The position numbers and the translations under genes are program-made. Under the pieces are notes generated by a model. It was not told the origin of the DNA. It did no database searches and saw only the letters and a program-made list of their open reading frames with translations. This document shows positions 14,862 to 28,185 of a stretch of 64,000 nt of DNA, piece by piece. Positions within the stretch are counted from its first letter, which is position 1; every line of letters begins with the position of its first letter. Source of the stretch: Clostridiaceae bacterium (GTDB taxonomy: Bacteria; Bacillota; Clostridia; CAYPLH01; DUMO01); contig DUMO01000045.1 of the NCBI GenBank assembly GCA_012839865.1, positions 1 through 64,000 of the forward strand. Direction: 5' to 3'.

Positions 14862-17024
14862 ATGGGTCTTACAAAACAATCTACAGGCACAGGCGTTTTG
14901 GACAGTGTACTTCGTATTGAACACAATATTCCCGGAAGCAAGGTAATTGCTCTGGCCGGGAATCCTAATGTAGGTAAAAGCACAGTTTTCAACAGCCTTA
15001 CCGGGTTGAATCAACATACCGGCAACTGGCCGGGAAAAACAGTTGCCAGCGCCCAGGGTAAAATTAAACATAAAGGAATTTCCTTCACCATGGTTGACAT
15101 ACCGGGTACATATTCTCTTATGGCAAACTCTGCAGAAGAAGAGGTTGCCAGGGATTTCATATGTTTCGGGAAACCCGGTGCAATCGTTATTGTTACAGAT
15201 GCCACATGCCTGGAACGCAACATGAACCTGGTTCTTCAAACACTGGAAATCAGCGACAGGGTTGTTATCTGTGTCAATCTTATTGATGAAGCCCAAAGAA
15301 AGAAAATTTCAATTGATTATAAAGAACTTTCAAAGGAGCTTGGGGTACCGGTAATTCCTACCAATGCCCGAAGCAATTACGGACTTGATAAACTGATGGA
15401 TGCAGTTTACGATATTGCCATCGGCGAACCTGGTACCAGGCCTGTTTCCATAACATACGACGATGAAATTGAGACGGCAATAAAAATACTGAGTCCCAGG
15501 ATTTCCGAGCTTGCCGGCGGCAGTCTCAACGCCCGCTGGGTTGCCCTGAAGTTAATTGAAGGGGATGCCTCCCTTTTAAAATCTCTTAATGAATATCTTG
15601 GTCTGGACATAACAAAAGATGAAGCCCTTTTGGAGCTTCTTGACACTGTAAAGGAAAAAATATTCAATAATATGGACCCGGGCTTGCTAAGAGACAGGAT
15701 GGTATCAGGATTGGTGCATATGGCAGAGAGAATTTGCAAACGCACAGTACATTTTCAGGATGCACATTATGACAACATGGACAGAAAAATCGACCGCATA
15801 TTGACTTCCCGCGTCCTTGGTATACCAATTATGATCGGGCTTCTGGCATTTATTTTCTGGCTTACAATAACAGCAGCAAATGTTCCTTCAGAAATAATTG
15901 CCTCATTCCTTTTCCGGATTGAAGAACACCTGACTGCTTTTTTCATCCGTCAGGGGCTTCCCGGCTGGGTCCATGGAGTGCTTGTCCTGGGCATCTACAG
16001 AACGGTGGCGTGGGTTGTATCAGTCATGCTTCCCCCAATGGCAATATTCTTTCCATTTTTTACGCTGCTTGAAGACCTTGGGTATTTGCCCAGAATAGCT
16101 TTCAACCTTGATAATTTTTTCAAAAAGGCATGTGCCCATGGCAAACAGGCACTGACCATGTGCATGGGTTTCGGTTGCAATGCCGCCGGTGTGATAGGAT
16201 GCAGAATCATTGACTCCCCAAGGGAACGGCTGATTGCAACTCTAACAAACAATTTTGTGCCTTGCAACGGGCGTTTTCCAACCCTTATAGCGATTATTGC
16301 CATGTTCTTTGCCAAATCACACCTTGGAGCTCTGCAGCCTGTTGTTTCAACCTTGCTTTTAACCGGGATTGTTGTGTTGGGTATTGCTATAACATTGTTT
16401 ATATCAAAAATACTTTCAAAAACCATATTAAAAGGCATTCCTTCATCCTTTGCCCTGGAACTTCCTCCCTACAGGAAACCTCAGATAGGCAGGATTATTA
16501 TAAGATCCATTCTTGACAGAACAGTCTTTGTACTTGGCCGTGCTGTTATGGTAGCTGCACCGGCGGGTCTTATAATCTGGGTAATGGCCAATATTAATAT
16601 CGGCGGTTATAGTATTCTGGCTTATTGCACAAGTTTTCTTGATCCCTTTGCCACGTTAATCGGACTGGACGGAAGCATTCTGATGGCTTTCATACTTGGC
16701 TTTCCGGCAAATGAAATAGTAATCCCGATTGTTATCATGAGTTACATGTCTTCGGGAAGCATACATGAACTTGGCAGTCTGATTGAGTTGAAAGAACTTT
16801 TGGTCTCCAACGGCTGGACGTGGGTGACGGCAATATGCGTCATGATTTTCTCATTAATGCACTGGCCTTGCGGCACCACCTTGTGGACAATAAGAAAAGA
16901 AACCCAAAGCTGGAAATGGACAATAGCATCTTTCCTTATCCCAACCCTGACGGGCATTATTATATGTTTTGTCGTGGCAGGCACTGCCCGCCTGTTGGGG
17001 CTTGGAGGTTTTCAGGGCTTATAG
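14862..17024 (+). CDS. feoB: Ferrous iron transporter FeoB
   Basis: FeoB carries Fe2+ across the cytoplasmic membrane. The N-terminal GTPase domain starts near residue 27 with G1 GNPNVGKS, then G3 DIPGTYSL, G4 VNLIDEA (NLID in place of the more common NMxD) and G5 TNARSNYG. The membrane part (about residues 320-710) has the two gate regions with conserved cysteines and prolines, LPRIAFNLD and GFGCNAAGVIGCR, and the later NEIVIPIV. At 720 residues it is of normal length for the short clostridial form. It follows feoA in the same operon and faces the DtxR-type regulator gene. Confidence 0.95.
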   Translation: MGLTKQSTGTGVLDSVLRIEHNIPGSKVIALAGNPNVGKSTVFNSLTGLNQHTGNWPGKTVASAQGKIKHKGISFTMVDIPGTYSLMANSAEEEVARDFICFGKPGAIVIVTDATCLERNMNLVLQTLEISDRVVICVNLIDEAQRKKISIDYKELSKELGVPVIPTNARSNYGLDKLMDAVYDIAIGEPGTRPVSITYDDEIETAIKILSPRISELAGGSLNARWVALKLIEGDASLLKSLNEYLGLDITKDEALLELLDTVKEKIFNNMDPGLLRDRMVSGLVHMAERICKRTVHFQDAHYDNMDRKIDRILTSRVLGIPIMIGLLAFIFWLTITAANVPSEIIASFLFRIEEHLTAFFIRQGLPGWVHGVLVLGIYRTVAWVVSVMLPPMAIFFPFFTLLEDLGYLPRIAFNLDNFFKKACAHGKQALTMCMGFGCNAAGVIGCRIIDSPRERLIATLTNNFVPCNGRFPTLIAIIAMFFAKSHLGALQPVVSTLLLTGIVVLGIAITLFISKILSKTILKGIPSSFALELPPYRKPQIGRIIIRSILDRTVFVLGRAVMVAAPAGLIIWVMANINIGGYSILAYCTSFLDPFATLIGLDGSILMAFILGFPANEIVIPIVIMSYMSSGSIHELGSLIELKELLVSNGWTWVTAICVMIFSLMHWPCGTTLWTIRKETQSWKWTIASFLIPTLTGIIICFVVAGTARLLGLGGFQGL

Positions 17025-17051
17025 TTGACATGGCTGATTAAAGAACAATAA

Positions 17052-17498
17052 CCTCAAATAACCGCATTTGCAAGGATAAACTCAACTGGTATCTATGAAT
17101 TGTGCACAGAAGAACAGGGCAAAGGCATCAACCCCGAATACGGACTGGAAGTGTGGCAGACTTTGTTGATAAATAGCGTGATACCCAAAAAAGAGTATGT
17201 TGATTTTGCTCTGAATCATATTAACTGGATATTGGGAATAAATCCGAGAAATCTTTGTATGATGAAAGGAATAGGTACCAACAACCCAAGAATAAGACCG
17301 GGCGGCACCCTTGACGGATGCATTTGCCATGGTATTATAGCAGATCATGAGTTTGACAGGCCATGGCTTGGCATCTGGATGGATGATAAACTGGACTGGC
17401 ACAAAGATTACATTGCCGGTTATAAAATCTGGGCTCAGGGAGAAGCACTTATAAGGGGCACCTCCTGTTTCATGATGGGATTATCCTTGCTGAAATAG
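17052..17498 (+). pseudogene. C-terminal fragment of a GH9-like six-hairpin glycosidase
   Basis: This frame opens just after a stop at 17049 and has no ATG with a ribosome-binding site before its first family-like residues; the best start is TTG 17100. The about 140 residues resemble the last helices of GH9-like or related (alpha/alpha)6 glycosidases: VDFALNHINWILGINPRNLCMM, read as FALNHINWILGINP, then GTNNPRIRPGG, and AGYKIWAQGEALIRGTS. The catalytic domain upstream is absent, replaced by feoB 27 bases away. I interpret it as a remnant of a deleted gene. The exact family is uncertain. Confidence 0.6.
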
Positions 17499-17557
17499 CT
17501 GTATAATGCTGTTTTGAAAAAATTACATAAAAATATTATAAAAAAATTGGTAATCTA

Positions 17558-17586
17558 TTGACATGTGACAAAATGTCTACTATAAT
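17558..17586 (+). promoter_or_regulatory. Consensus sigma-A promoter for the small RNA gene
   Basis: TTGACA (17558-17563) and TATAAT (17581-17586) match the consensus exactly with a 17-base spacer. Transcription should start near 17593. Confidence 0.85.
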
Positions 17587-17592
17587 AAGACT

Positions 17593-17737
17593 GTGGCTAA
17601 ACGTAACAAATGATCGCAAAATGCGATTATGGCTTGGTGTTGGTGTTGGTGTTAATGTGCACCGAGTGTTGGTGCAAGTACTGGTTCTTTTTATACAGTA
17701 CTATGAAATAGGCAGTATTTGACTGCCTCTTTTTTTT
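17593..17737 (+). ncRNA. Free-standing structured small RNA of about 145 bases
   Basis: A perfect promoter lies directly upstream and a Rho-independent terminator ends the unit: AGGCAGT (17710-17716), loop, ACTGCCT (17722-17728), then a T-run to 17737. Between them I can pair three hairpins: a 9-bp stem at 17610-17618/17622-17630 with an AAA loop, TGCACC/GGTGCA at 17658-17663/17671-17676, and AGTACTG/CAGTACT at 17677-17683/17696-17702. A TTGGTG repeat (three copies and a part, about 17634-17654) lies in the single-stranded stretch between the first two. No open frame with a ribosome-binding site fits inside. It is not 6S RNA, tmRNA, SRP RNA or RNase P by any feature I can see. The terminator ends 10 bases from the stop of the convergent AraC gene. 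Confidence 0.75.
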
Positions 17738-17746
17738 GGGCAAAAA

Positions 17747-20194
17747 TCAACGCTTCCGGCTATAATACAATCCCACGCTGTTTTTTTTCACCGAACTATC
17801 CATGCTTTTTTCACATTTGCATTTTTCCCTGTATCTTTTCGGTGTACATCCAAACATCATTTTAAACCTGCTGATAAAATACTGGGGAGTGGAATACCCC
17901 ATAATATCCGAAATTTCCTCCACTTTCAGGTCCGTATTTAACAGCAGGTTCCGGCAATGGTTAAGTTTAAGGTTGGTAAGATAATCTATAAACTTTACTC
18001 CCGTCTCGTTCTTAAAAACCCTGCTCAGATATTTGTAATTGATTCCCAGCTCATTGGCAACATACTCCAGTGAAAGCTGATTGTTCTGGATATTTTCTTC
18101 AATGAACTCCTGAATTTTCATAACCAGTTCCCTGCTGTCGCAAGATGTGCTTTCAATCCTTTTAAAGGCTTGGCAAATAACTTCTTTCATCCATACTTCA
18201 AATTCCAATATATTGCTTGTATTTAAAAAGCCCTTATCCAGACTCATCTCTTCTCCAACCTGAGTGCAGATAAAATCTTCAACAATCGAAACGCAGTTAG
18301 CTAAAGTATTATATATCTGCTGGTAACTGTAGTCTCCCCCGCGAAGGGCCTGCACCAGTCCTTCCAGGTCACTTTTGCTTCTGTCGTAATCCAGGCTCCT
18401 GAGTGAATTGCATAGGTTGTTCAAAAGCAGCTTGTTGGAGAAAGAACGCTTTTCTTCAAGGCTTATAATATCCGTAAAGGTATAAAGGGTTTTTTCAGGA
18501 AAAACATAACTGTAATTCAGCCCGCTGAGAGCTATTTTATATGAAGTATTCATATGCACAAGATTGGTGTCTGTCTTGCCAAAGGAAATATATTTCAATA
18601 TGACCATACTTTCCGGAGACTCTTTGTTTGTGGTCTCCAAAAATCTGTACCCAAGCTGATGCAGATTTTCCACCGTAAAATCAAAATTGAAAAGCACCGC
18701 AATAATGTTGTCCTTTTCGTAAAAAAGGCATTTTGACTGGGGTGTTGTAAATACTTCATCAAGTTTGGAACATATATTAAGTTTCTCATACTCATAAGTG
18801 ACAACATTCTGGGTATCTTTAAGCTTTTCAAGCTTTATGGCGGCGGCACAGAAAAAGTTATATGGAAAGGTTATGTCCAACACCTTCATCCTGGCTCTTA
18901 TTTCTTCCAATTCCGGCGGGGTATCTGAAAAAAGTGAGCTCAGAAAGTTCATTTTCAGCGTAGGAAACACTTTTTTCAACTCCTGCTCCTTTTTCAGCAT
19001 TATGCTCTCCATGTTGTTTATCGTTCCACTGATTAATGAATATTCATTATGCTCCTTGACTTTATGGAAGTATGGGCTCCTTAAACAATAATCAACAATA
19101 GATTTAATAGGTTTGGCTAGCTGCTTTGTTTCGGCAAATGATACAATGAGTCCTATCAGTACTGAAATCAACGCCACCAGTATAGTTGCCTTAAGTATAT
19201 AATCAGATACGGATGAAATTGCTTCCATAGGTGTTACCGAAACATACATCCAATTGCTGTATGACGACGGTTCATATGATACAACAAAGGGGATGCCCTC
19301 CACCCTGGTTATAAAGTAACCGGATTTTTTACGATTTTCCGTCAATTCTTTATCATACTGCAGCTCATTAATATTCTGACCAATCAGCGTGTGGTCGGTA
19401 TGAGAGATTATTGTTCCGTCTTCATTAAAAATAAATACGCTCCCCAAATCCTCCGGCATGCTTTGATCCAAAAAACTTTTGAAAATGTCTCCGCTCACCG
19501 TAACAACTACCGCACATCTAACACTTCTGTTGTATCCATAATTCACTCTTACAGCATGTATTATTGTTTCAGGATATTTGTTGTACAAAACATCAGAATA
19601 TTGGATTCCAAGGTTTTTGCCGTAATCAAAAAACAGAAGCATATTATCTTCGTCTACAGGTTCACTTTGGGATGCCTTTAAAACAATATTGTAATAATGG
19701 CTGAGATCCTGTTGAGATTCAAGATCCCGGTAAAGGGAATGCCGTATATAATCAGTGGAAATCAAAAGGTTGCTGTTTGAATAGTAAATTGAAAGTGAAT
19801 AAACAAGCGGATTTAAAACACTCATACTGGACAGGTATTTTGATACTTCCATTGTCTCCGGAAGTATATGCTCCAATGGCTCATTGAAATACCGGTAAAG
19901 ATAATAATTGCTGTTAACGTCATGCATTACTTTTAATGAAAAATCCCGTACCGTATCAATCAGCGCTAAATCTATACTTCTCCTGTATTGATTCAGGAGT
20001 TTGTTGTTTGAAGATATTATGCGGTCGGTCAGGTATTGTTCAACAATTTTATATGATAAAAGTCCCATAACAAATGTGCAGATAATAATTATCGATATAA
20101 AAGAAAACAGCAAAGAAGGTTCAAATGTTGAACAGTGTTTTTTAAGCCTGATTATGTATGAATGCAACAAATCTTTCAACTTATACAACCCCAT
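17747..20194 (-). CDS. Membrane-anchored AraC-type transcriptional regulator with extracellular sensor domain
   Basis: The 815-residue product has a membrane helix at about residues 27-50 (LLFSFISIIIICTFVMGLL), a long extracellular Cache-like domain, a second helix at about 330-355 (ILVALISVLIGLIVSF), a cytoplasmic linker, and a C-terminal AraC/XylS double helix-turn-helix (LSLEYVANELGINYKYLSRVFKNE and ISDIMGYSTPQYFISRFKMMFGCTPKRYR in parts). There is no kinase domain, so it is a one-component sensor. In Clostridia and Paenibacilli such proteins are encoded next to LplABC-type importers without their own ATPase and control them. Here it is divergent from exactly that gene set. The ligand is likely an extracellular sugar, by inference. 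Confidence 0.9.
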   Translation of the reverse strand: MGLYKLKDLLHSYIIRLKKHCSTFEPSLLFSFISIIIICTFVMGLLSYKIVEQYLTDRIISSNNKLLNQYRRSIDLALIDTVRDFSLKVMHDVNSNYYLYRYFNEPLEHILPETMEVSKYLSSMSVLNPLVYSLSIYYSNSNLLISTDYIRHSLYRDLESQQDLSHYYNIVLKASQSEPVDEDNMLLFFDYGKNLGIQYSDVLYNKYPETIIHAVRVNYGYNRSVRCAVVVTVSGDIFKSFLDQSMPEDLGSVFIFNEDGTIISHTDHTLIGQNINELQYDKELTENRKKSGYFITRVEGIPFVVSYEPSSYSNWMYVSVTPMEAISSVSDYILKATILVALISVLIGLIVSFAETKQLAKPIKSIVDYCLRSPYFHKVKEHNEYSLISGTINNMESIMLKKEQELKKVFPTLKMNFLSSLFSDTPPELEEIRARMKVLDITFPYNFFCAAAIKLEKLKDTQNVVTYEYEKLNICSKLDEVFTTPQSKCLFYEKDNIIAVLFNFDFTVENLHQLGYRFLETTNKESPESMVILKYISFGKTDTNLVHMNTSYKIALSGLNYSYVFPEKTLYTFTDIISLEEKRSFSNKLLLNNLCNSLRSLDYDRSKSDLEGLVQALRGGDYSYQQIYNTLANCVSIVEDFICTQVGEEMSLDKGFLNTSNILEFEVWMKEVICQAFKRIESTSCDSRELVMKIQEFIEENIQNNQLSLEYVANELGINYKYLSRVFKNETGVKFIDYLTNLKLNHCRNLLLNTDLKVEEISDIMGYSTPQYFISRFKMMFGCTPKRYREKCKCEKSMDSSVKKNSVGLYYSRKR

Positions 20195-24464: not shown

Positions 24465-25814
24465 TTACGACAGCCGGTTTTCGATAACCTTCACCAGTTC
24501 CTCTGCTTTTTCTGAAATATAGTCAATATTGCTGCCCTCAATCATGACTCTTATCAAAGGTTCGGTACCCGAAGGCCTTATCAGTACTCTGCCCTTGTTT
24601 GAAAATTCAGCCTCCAATTCTTTGCACACTCTTGCGATAACTTCATCTTCAAGGTATTTATGTTTTTTTTCATTGCTTACCTTTGCGTTTCTTATCACCT
24701 GGGGCAAAATCTGTACAATTGAAGAAAGCTCCGATAATTTTCTTCCGGTGAGTTTCAAAATCCTCAAAAGCTGCAGTGCCGTCAATATTCCGTCCCCTGT
24801 CGTATTGTGCTCAAGCAGAATGATATGCCCCGACTGCTCTCCTCCAATCACATATCCGTTCTCAAGCATTTCTTCAAGAACATACCTGTCACCCACCTTG
24901 GTCCTGACAAGCTTTATATTGTTCTCTTTGGTAAAAATCTCAAATCCCATGTTGCTCATGACAGTAGCAACTATGGTATCCCCGGCAAGCCTTCCCGCCT
25001 TTTTAAGGTCCAGGCCGATAACAGCCATTATTTTATCTCCATCGACTATTTCACCATTCTCATCAACAGCAAGCACTCTATCGGCATCTCCGTCAAATGC
25101 TATTCCTATGTCGGCTCCAACTGCCCTGACTTTTTCGCAAAGGCTTTCCAGGTGCAAAGAACCACATTCCTTATTAATATTCAGTCCATCAGGTGTGTCA
25201 TTTATGACCGTTACATCCGCCCCCAATTCAAGAAAAGTGCGGGGAGCAGCTTTATATGCTGCGCCATTGGCACAGTCAACCATTATTTTAATACCTTTCA
25301 AATCAACATCAATTGTACTTTTCAAAAAATCAACATAATCCTCCAGTGTTGTGTTCATAATACTGCTGGTTCCAACACCTTCACCAACAGGTACCGGAAG
25401 CCCTTCCACCCCGGATTTGACAATCATTTCAATTCTGTCTTCCAGTTCATCTGAAAGCTTGTATCCTTTACTGTTGAAAAACTTTATACCGTTAAATTCA
25501 AAAGGATTGTGGGAAGCAGATATAACCACCCCGGCATCTGCATTATACTTTCTTACAAGATAAGCAACCGCCGGTGTGGGAATAACGCCAAGAATAATAG
25601 CCTCCGCTCCTACCGAGCATATTCCTGAAACAAGAGCTGCTTCAAGCATGGAGCCTGAAATCCTTGTATCCTTTCCCACCAGGATACGAGGTGTATGCCT
25701 GGTTTCATTGGTTAAAACATAAGCCCCGGCCTTGCCCAGTTTGAAGGCAAGCTCAGCAGTAAGCTCCTTATTTGCAATTCCTCTTACTCCATCAGTTCCA
25801 AATAGTCTAGCCAA
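24465..25814 (-). CDS. glmM: Phosphoglucosamine mutase
   Basis: GlmM converts glucosamine-6-phosphate to glucosamine-1-phosphate for UDP-GlcNAc and peptidoglycan. The 449-residue product begins [14 protein letters not shown]; the phosphoserine loop is VISASHNP with Ser101; the metal loop is DGDADR; the sugar-binding loop is GGEQSGHI; and the phosphate loop is [12 protein letters not shown]. The start is TTG, with GGAGGG 7 bases upstream. It ends the cdaA-cdaR-glmM order conserved in Firmicutes, where GlmM also binds and restrains CdaA. Confidence 0.97.
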
Positions 25815-25990
25815 ATATGACCCTCCAATTACTCTTAAAAATATTTTTTTAAGTTTCCACTTTGCTGTTTATAAAAAATGCCTTAATGCCAGGCATCCAT
25901 TTTTTCAGTCAAAACAAAACTTAATCCCAATGTCTGATGCCATAGGCCTTCGGCTGAGTTTTTGCAATCAAGCCAACGGAACCTGATTCA

Positions 25991-27307
25991 TCACCGGCTG
26001 AAAAACCCGGCATCCACGGAGTCATTTTCATCATCTGTTTCCCCGCCGGCCGTTGGATTTTCATTATTTTCATTGCTCTCATTTCCTTCAGTGTCTTCCG
26101 AACTTGCAATCCTGTTTATCTCTACCGTTACCGTATACTCGCCGTCAATCATCAGTTGGTCGGGAACATATAAAGCAAGGGGCACCTCATGAACTCCCTC
26201 TTCCAGGTAATTAACACTTATTGAAGGTATTACTGAAGTCAGATTGAACGCAGCATCCTTGCTTTTACCAACCAACTTAACCGATACATCCGGCGTTATT
26301 ATATTATATGTATACTCCAGTTTCCTGCCGTAAATTCTGATCTGGTCTTTCAAAATACTGTACTCCCTTTCAGGCAGTTTTTCAATTATTACAGAAAGCG
26401 CAATCTCGGTATTTTGATCATATAAGGTCACGCCCTCGGGTAGTTGAAGGCCGACAGTCGCATTGACACTTTCAAATTGACCTTCAATATTGTAAGGCAC
26501 CGTGCTTATTTCACCAAGCTCCTTCAAAGCATCCGAAGGACCTTGAACAAACACTTTTTCAGGTGCAACCTTTTTATCCTCCACAGAATAATACTTCATA
26601 GGTTCACCCTCAACCACGGGTTTTACGGCAACTTCCTTTGCAATCTCCAGATTGGCGCTTGCATTTATGTTGAATTTAGTGGCATATCCGATTAATTCTT
26701 CATTATTGGCATTATAAAAACGGCAATTTACCAAGGTTGAAATATTTTCATGAAGATCCTCATAGTACAGAGGTGCAACAACTGAGCTTATGGCGTTTAC
26801 CTCAGGCTCAAGCCCTACAATCTCCACTATGTCGGGGGTCAAAAAGGATTTTGTAATTATGTAACCTCTTCGGACCGTACCTTCCGGCATTAACTTCACT
26901 TGAAATGTCTTTTTGATTATATCCTTGATATTAACTTTAACCGATTTATAATTTGTACCAATTATGTAAACTCCATTGTTTTCATTGATAATATGTACCG
27001 AAAGCTCATATTCGCCTGCTCTTTTAATATCAGAGAAGTCGATGATGGCTTTAAAGTCTGCTCCGGATATTTCATTTATAGCATCTTTCCTTCCCTGTAT
27101 TGCAACATTAACATATTGCGGTATGCTGGTATTGTACAAGCCAAGGCTTTTTTGGGACAGCTCATTGTAGTTTTCCTGGCTTAAGGGCACTACAACCGTT
27201 TTGGTGCCCAGGGGATTCCTGCTGTTTAACGCTACAAACCACAACAAAATTGCAAATATTACAGAAAGTATTTTTGTAACAATGCTTGAACTCAAATACT
27301 TGTTCAT
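25991..27307 (-). CDS. cdaR: CdaR (YbbR-domain regulator of the diadenylate cyclase)
   Basis: The 438-residue product has one N-terminal membrane helix (IVTKILSVIFAILLWFVAL) followed by four YbbR repeats on the outside (for example VVPLSQENYNELSQ, VKVNIKDIIKKTFQVKLMPEG, VFVQGPSDALKELGEI). The tail is rich in Asn, Glu and Gly. CdaR sits on the outer face of the membrane and modulates CdaA. Its ATG overlaps the cdaA stop in ATGA, indicating coupled translation. Confidence 0.93.
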   Translation of the reverse strand: MNKYLSSSIVTKILSVIFAILLWFVALNSRNPLGTKTVVVPLSQENYNELSQKSLGLYNTSIPQYVNVAIQGRKDAINEISGADFKAIIDFSDIKRAGEYELSVHIINENNGVYIIGTNYKSVKVNIKDIIKKTFQVKLMPEGTVRRGYIITKSFLTPDIVEIVGLEPEVNAISSVVAPLYYEDLHENISTLVNCRFYNANNEELIGYATKFNINASANLEIAKEVAVKPVVEGEPMKYYSVEDKKVAPEKVFVQGPSDALKELGEISTVPYNIEGQFESVNATVGLQLPEGVTLYDQNTEIALSVIIEKLPEREYSILKDQIRIYGRKLEYTYNIITPDVSVKLVGKSKDAAFNLTSVIPSISVNYLEEGVHEVPLALYVPDQLMIDGEYTVTVEINRIASSEDTEGNESNENNENPTAGGETDDENDSVDAGFFSR

Positions 27308-28185
27308 TTATTTTTCACCTTCCACAGTGAGGACAATTTCATCTGAGTATCCTTTTTGATTATAAGGTTTTTATTTAATGCCTTTCGTAAAGTATCCTGT
27401 GTGAGGTTTCTGGTAAGACCCCCGTTCAAGGCAAAGGAAATTTTGCCGGATTCCTCGGAAACCACTATTACAATCGCATCTGAGACCTCGGTAATACCAA
27501 GGGCGGCTCTGTGTCTTGTCCCCAACTCTTTACTTAAATTCGGGTTGTCCGTAAGAGGTAAAAAACAGGAAGTTGCTTTAATCCTGTTATCTCTTATTAC
27601 AACCGCACCATCGTGCAGGGGCGTATTGGGAGAAAAAATATTTATCAGAAGTTCCGAGGTGACATTGGCGTCAATTTCAATACCTGAATTTATTATTTCT
27701 CCTATCTTGGTCTCACGCTCAATAACAATCAAAGCCCCCACATAGTTGCTCGCCATGTGAAAACATGCTTTAACAAGCTCTTCAATCATTGTGGTTGTCT
27801 GTATGATCTTGCTTTCTTCATCAAAGCTGAAGAAGTCCTTGAACTTGCTCCTTCCGATCTTCTCAAGCCCTCTCCTGAGCTCAGGCTGAAAAATGACAAC
27901 AAGTGCAAATCCAACGATTTGTATAGAATTGGTAAGTATGTACTCTATTGTTCTTAAACCAAGCAACTCTGATAAATACCTGGCGGCAATAATAACGAAA
28001 ATCCCTTTAATCAACTGAACAGCACGGGTTTCTCTTACAAGCTGTATCAGCTTGTATATTACATATGATACAATACTTATATCGACAATTATTTGCAGAA
28101 TGCTCAACGGGCCATCAATTGCCAAAAAATCTCTAATCAGTCTGAAAAAATTAGATATATTAAATTCCTTAAGAGTATCCAGCAA
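27304..28185 (-). CDS. cdaA: Diadenylate cyclase CdaA (c-di-AMP synthase)
   Basis: CdaA makes c-di-AMP from two ATP, a signal for potassium and cell-wall control. The 293-residue product has three N-terminal membrane helices and a DAC domain with the catalytic motifs LHDGAVVI and GTRHRAALGI, both intact. The start is TTG at 28185, preceded by GGTGAGG; no ATG fits better. It is the first gene of the operon with cdaR and glmM. Confidence 0.96.
   Translation of the reverse strand: MLDTLKEFNISNFFRLIRDFLAIDGPLSILQIIVDISIVSYVIYKLIQLVRETRAVQLIKGIFVIIAARYLSELLGLRTIEYILTNSIQIVGFALVVIFQPELRRGLEKIGRSKFKDFFSFDEESKIIQTTTMIEELVKACFHMASNYVGALIVIERETKIGEIINSGIEIDANVTSELLINIFSPNTPLHDGAVVIRDNRIKATSCFLPLTDNPNLSKELGTRHRAALGITEVSDAIVIVVSEESGKISFALNGGLTRNLTQDTLRKALNKNLIIKKDTQMKLSSLWKVKNK

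Follow-up and report, generated by a model that had tools for sequence, protein, structure and literature searches.

The small RNAs closest in design to the locus described here are the trans-acting RNAs encoded between genes in Firmicutes, which it resembles in length, housekeeping promoter, hairpins, U-tract terminator and the lack of an open reading frame (ORF) with a ribosome site. The LhrC family of Listeria offers a second point of reference: its UCCC motif pairs with AG-rich Shine-Dalgarno regions and, as in the RNA predicted here, a short molecule carries several copies of one short motif, which in LhrC lie in loops or single-stranded parts (PMC8079631). A third is DapZ (RF02551), alike in terminator hairpin and U-tract; the locus scores 18.1 bits against a gathering score of 56, and we rejected membership because this is far too low and little beyond the terminator is matched.

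We studied the locus within a window of 64,000 nucleotides, the whole stretch of Clostridiaceae DNA that was analysed. It is probably a real, lineage-specific small RNA gene of an ordinary kind, as far as its sequence can tell. Its features and those of the flanking genes are given below by position, strand and basis.

17100-17498, plus strand: C-terminal remnant of a GH9 glycosidase (Pfam just below cut-off; solved endoglucanases, E 2e-7)
17515-17549, plus strand: UP-element-like A/T-rich tracts adjoining the -35 box on its upstream side (putative, from sequence)
17558-17586, plus strand: exact sigma-70/A promoter, TTGACA-17-TATAAT (motif scan)
17593-17737, plus strand: predicted transcript of ~145 nt (start placed from the -10 spacing, end from the U-tract)
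17610-17630, plus strand: hairpin 1, 9-pair stem and 3-nt loop (folding, z -5.3)
17610-17711, plus strand: 33-codon open frame, probably not translated (ORF list, Shine-Dalgarno check, relatives search)
17633-17676, plus strand: repeat domain, alternative hairpins formed by one CACC and four GGUG (folding)
17634-17653, plus strand: TTGGTG tandem repeat, 3.3 perfect copies, partly paired (repeat search, folding)
17677-17702, plus strand: hairpin 3, 7-pair stem AGTACTG/CAGTACT and 12-nt U-rich loop (folding, z -3.5)
17710-17737, plus strand: intrinsic terminator, 7-pair stem AGGCAGT/ACTGCCT, then CTTTTTTTT (sequence, terminator scan)
17747-20194, minus strand: AraC-type regulator of 815 residues, with a Cache domain below the Pfam cut-off (profile match)

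The promoter matches the sigma-70/A consensus at 12 of 12 positions. Exact copies number three in the window, against 0.11 expected, and because each of the other two precedes an ORF start by 48-69 nt, the exact motif appears to mark real promoters here. A promoter matching at 11 or more positions with a strong terminator at a distance of 50-300 nt is rarer still: the two strands of the window together hold one such pair, and none arose on the single strand scanned in 40 simulated first-order Markov sequences of 64 kb. The full-length body folds better than its shuffles (z = -2.9 and -3.35 in two computations), hairpins 1 and 3 are each more stable than all shuffles, and the repeat domain between them is beaten by only 4 of 300. 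Given the rare promoter-terminator pair, the folding of the body and the hairpins that outdo their shuffles, we regard 17558-17737 as very likely to be a real transcription unit. A short non-coding body between its own promoter and terminator is the arrangement of an autonomous bacterial small RNA gene.

Such a stand-alone gene had been proposed in an earlier, sequence-only reading, and its anatomy bears this out well. The consensus promoter is exact, the strong terminator is present with its stem and U-tract, the roughly 145-base body folds as described and holds no frame with a Shine-Dalgarno sequence, and the statement that no named RNA class fits agrees with a search of 4,227 Rfam families, none of which reaches its gathering cut-off. 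TTGACAT-8-ATGTCTA, an inverted repeat within the promoter, was considered as an operator and discarded: an equally good one occurs in 27% of random sequences, and the window has no second copy. Motifs common to the unit and the regions upstream of feoA or of the AraC and transporter genes occurred at chance level only.

The same reading had described the TTGGTG repeat as single-stranded. The repeat is there, but it is unpaired only part of the time, since the domain has a single CACC (17660-17663) for which four GGUG copies, one of them outside the tandem array at 17671-17674, are possible partners. The competing registers join 17633-17639 to 17660-17666, or GCACC at 17659-17663 to GGUGC from 17671. 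Pairing of CACC with the first repeat copy gives the minimum-energy fold at 37 °C; the 3' GGUGC is its partner instead at 55-60 °C or when the terminator is left out. The unpaired probability per 5 nt across the repeat is ~0.3-0.7 at 37 °C. A two-layer G-quadruplex built from the GG copies was not preferred in a folding model that allows quadruplexes. At a rate of roughly one per 10 kb, tandem repeats of equal score are frequent enough in the window for the array to be unremarkable in itself.

Nor did the roles suggested for the repeat find backing. As a multi-copy pairing site for messages it should have an excess of targets; the genome has 24 sites complementary to two copies with at most one mismatch (two belong to the locus itself), whereas the reversed pattern gives 26. 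Of 20 sites examined, 15 lie inside or opposite ORFs of at least 60 codons. The sole exact complementary site outside the locus, AACACCAACACC (L042), was rejected as an exposed target: it is part of a hairpin stem that lies between ORFs. Among the start regions of 47 genes in the window the best pairing was with the purD upstream region, at -30.1 kcal/mol, an energy reached by 0.9% of random windows and, with 47 genes tested, about what chance would give. The suggestion of a protein-binding site gained no support. Separately, CACC-rich repeats occur inside long ORFs at L063/L064 (G000 C72:4872-4916), L056 (C41:109219-109236), L061/L062 (C70:6677-6724) and L046 (C6:61281), and possibly encode Pro/Thr-rich linkers of secreted enzymes.

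Our preferred reading, held tentatively, is an autonomous unit whose product is a regulatory small RNA, lineage-specific and acting on messages through base-pairing. A strong housekeeping promoter would give a structured RNA of ~145 nt ending at the intrinsic terminator; contact with messages would be made by the G/U-rich central part, which is partly exposed, and by the U-rich loop in hairpin 3. The promoter, terminator, stable hairpins, absence of a frame with a ribosome site, of an Rfam family and of detectable relatives are read from the DNA; transcription, exact ends and any pairing are the parts that we infer. Its main rivals are transcription without function and an antisense action on the 3' untranslated region (UTR) of the AraC gene.

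Upstream on the plus strand stand feoA, feoB (ending at 17024) and the GH9 remnant, in that order. Positions 17025-17498, directly 3' of feoB, hold the C-terminal end of the glycosidase without its front part, in a frame that is still open; no second copy of the sequence was found in the source genome, and the gene was probably truncated or partly deleted recently. On the other side the AraC gene converges on the unit, its stop codon ~10 nt from the RNA 3' end, and behind it lie a solute-binding protein gene and two permease genes. The sequence-only reading was correct on both flanks, with the reservation that 'sugar-sensing', its epithet for the AraC gene, comes only from those adjacent uptake genes. 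At 24465-28185, glmM-, YbbR/CdaR- and CdaA-like genes are adjacent, named from the starts of their translations only.

Protein comparison with GTDB contigs gave one relative of the AraC protein (L022, 62% identity), in a metagenome-assembled genome labelled Clostridiaceae (G060), the nearest relative found at 61-65% protein identity. In G060 an unrelated gene comes after AraC, and the promoter-hairpin-terminator unit is absent; feoB (61%) precedes a gene that, judged by its translation, is glycogen-synthase-like, and glmM (65%) is found at another place, so all three genes are kept but separately. Neither at these three loci nor in the whole G060 genome was there a credible DNA or covariance match. 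A distant AraC relative (L068, 35%) has its own strong hairpin 3' of the gene and no such unit. Conservation of the hairpins where the flanking genes persist, as the sequence-only reading would require, is therefore not seen in G060 or beside L068; because synteny is broken there, the absence lowers the claim without refuting it.

Broader searches agreed. By DNA similarity, 59 class relatives, phages and plasmids yielded only chance-level pieces and the source genome only the element itself; a 33-base exact pattern had no match in viral contigs. A covariance scan of 391 class genomes, with a model of one sequence and its given hairpins that would miss diverged relatives, gave a best match outside the element of E 6.7e-4 per genome. 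We rejected such weak matches as homologues: the terminator and U-tracts align, and the other hairpins break or get skipped. The proposed covariance search thus returned only terminator-like chance matches in the 390 other class genomes. By either method no homologue was found in these 390, G060, phages or plasmids, a limited test in that the source genome is the sole member of its order in the set, and with none found in any search, neither covariation nor any mark of selection can be seen.

The rival that survives best, itself unlikely, is a unit with little or no function, its promoter and terminator juxtaposed when a rearrangement truncated the GH9 gene, and its RNA without a selected role. 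The unit does adjoin a gene remnant, has no relatives in any searched genome and lies in a rearranged neighbourhood, as the separation of feoB, AraC and glmM in G060 indicates. Against it, the promoter is still exact, with its A/T-rich upstream element, and the hairpins are intact, where decay would be expected in the absence of selection.

An improbable second rival is a cis-acting antisense RNA to the 3' UTR of the AraC mRNA, affecting its stability or 3' end. The AraC stop codon lies close to the RNA 3' end, and no good minus-strand terminator for AraC precedes 17613; the sole such site nearby, formed by hairpin 1 on the minus strand (17627-17613), is weak, so the AraC mRNA is probably antisense to the RNA, with a predicted overlap of ~130 nt. 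Overlap of convergent transcripts is nonetheless common and often without effect, and no such unit stands beside the two AraC relatives.

Readthrough from the other side would suit a 3'-UTR element of the feoAB/GH9-remnant transcript, comparable to 3'-UTR-embedded small RNAs with their own promoter, a reading that we consider quite improbable and in which the RNA would also be produced as the tail of that mRNA. The terminator of the unit is the first plus-strand terminator-like site 3' of feoB, none lying between 17024 and 17710, so transcripts of feoAB and the GH9 remnant may end there; yet the exact promoter of the unit makes readthrough unnecessary, and termination after feoB could be Rho-dependent. 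'Free-standing', the earlier description, calls for a reservation, as transcription from either side probably extends across the unit, that of feoAB and the GH9 remnant in sense and that of AraC in antisense.

That the RNA is a messenger encoding a hydrophobic peptide of 33 residues, in the style of type I toxin-antitoxin systems, is very improbable. The frame stops just before the terminator and its start codon sits within the stem of hairpin 1, but neither ATG of the body has a detectable Shine-Dalgarno sequence, unlike feoA and the solute-binding protein gene with 6-7 bases each; credible relatives were absent from the 390 other class genomes and plasmids, no antitoxin RNA promoter was identified, and the GU-rich stretch, having no stops, leaves a second frame open as well. 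That the one CACC switches among four GGUG copies, message pairing at one moving the others from free to paired or back, and so defines a new small RNA class, is barely credible.

Set against known systems, the base-pairing small RNA that we prefer has no sequence relation to LhrC: 17593-17737 contains no UCCC, and the UUGGUG copies are not complementary to Shine-Dalgarno sequences, stand in tandem and are partly paired. It differs from the trans-acting RNAs of Firmicutes in being known from sequence alone and having no conserved relatives found. If transcribed, it would add to the lineage-specific small RNAs, in this case at a sugar-uptake locus of a Clostridia lineage that has received little study; it would open no long-standing question, and its main value would be as an example of such RNAs arising beside rearranged genes.
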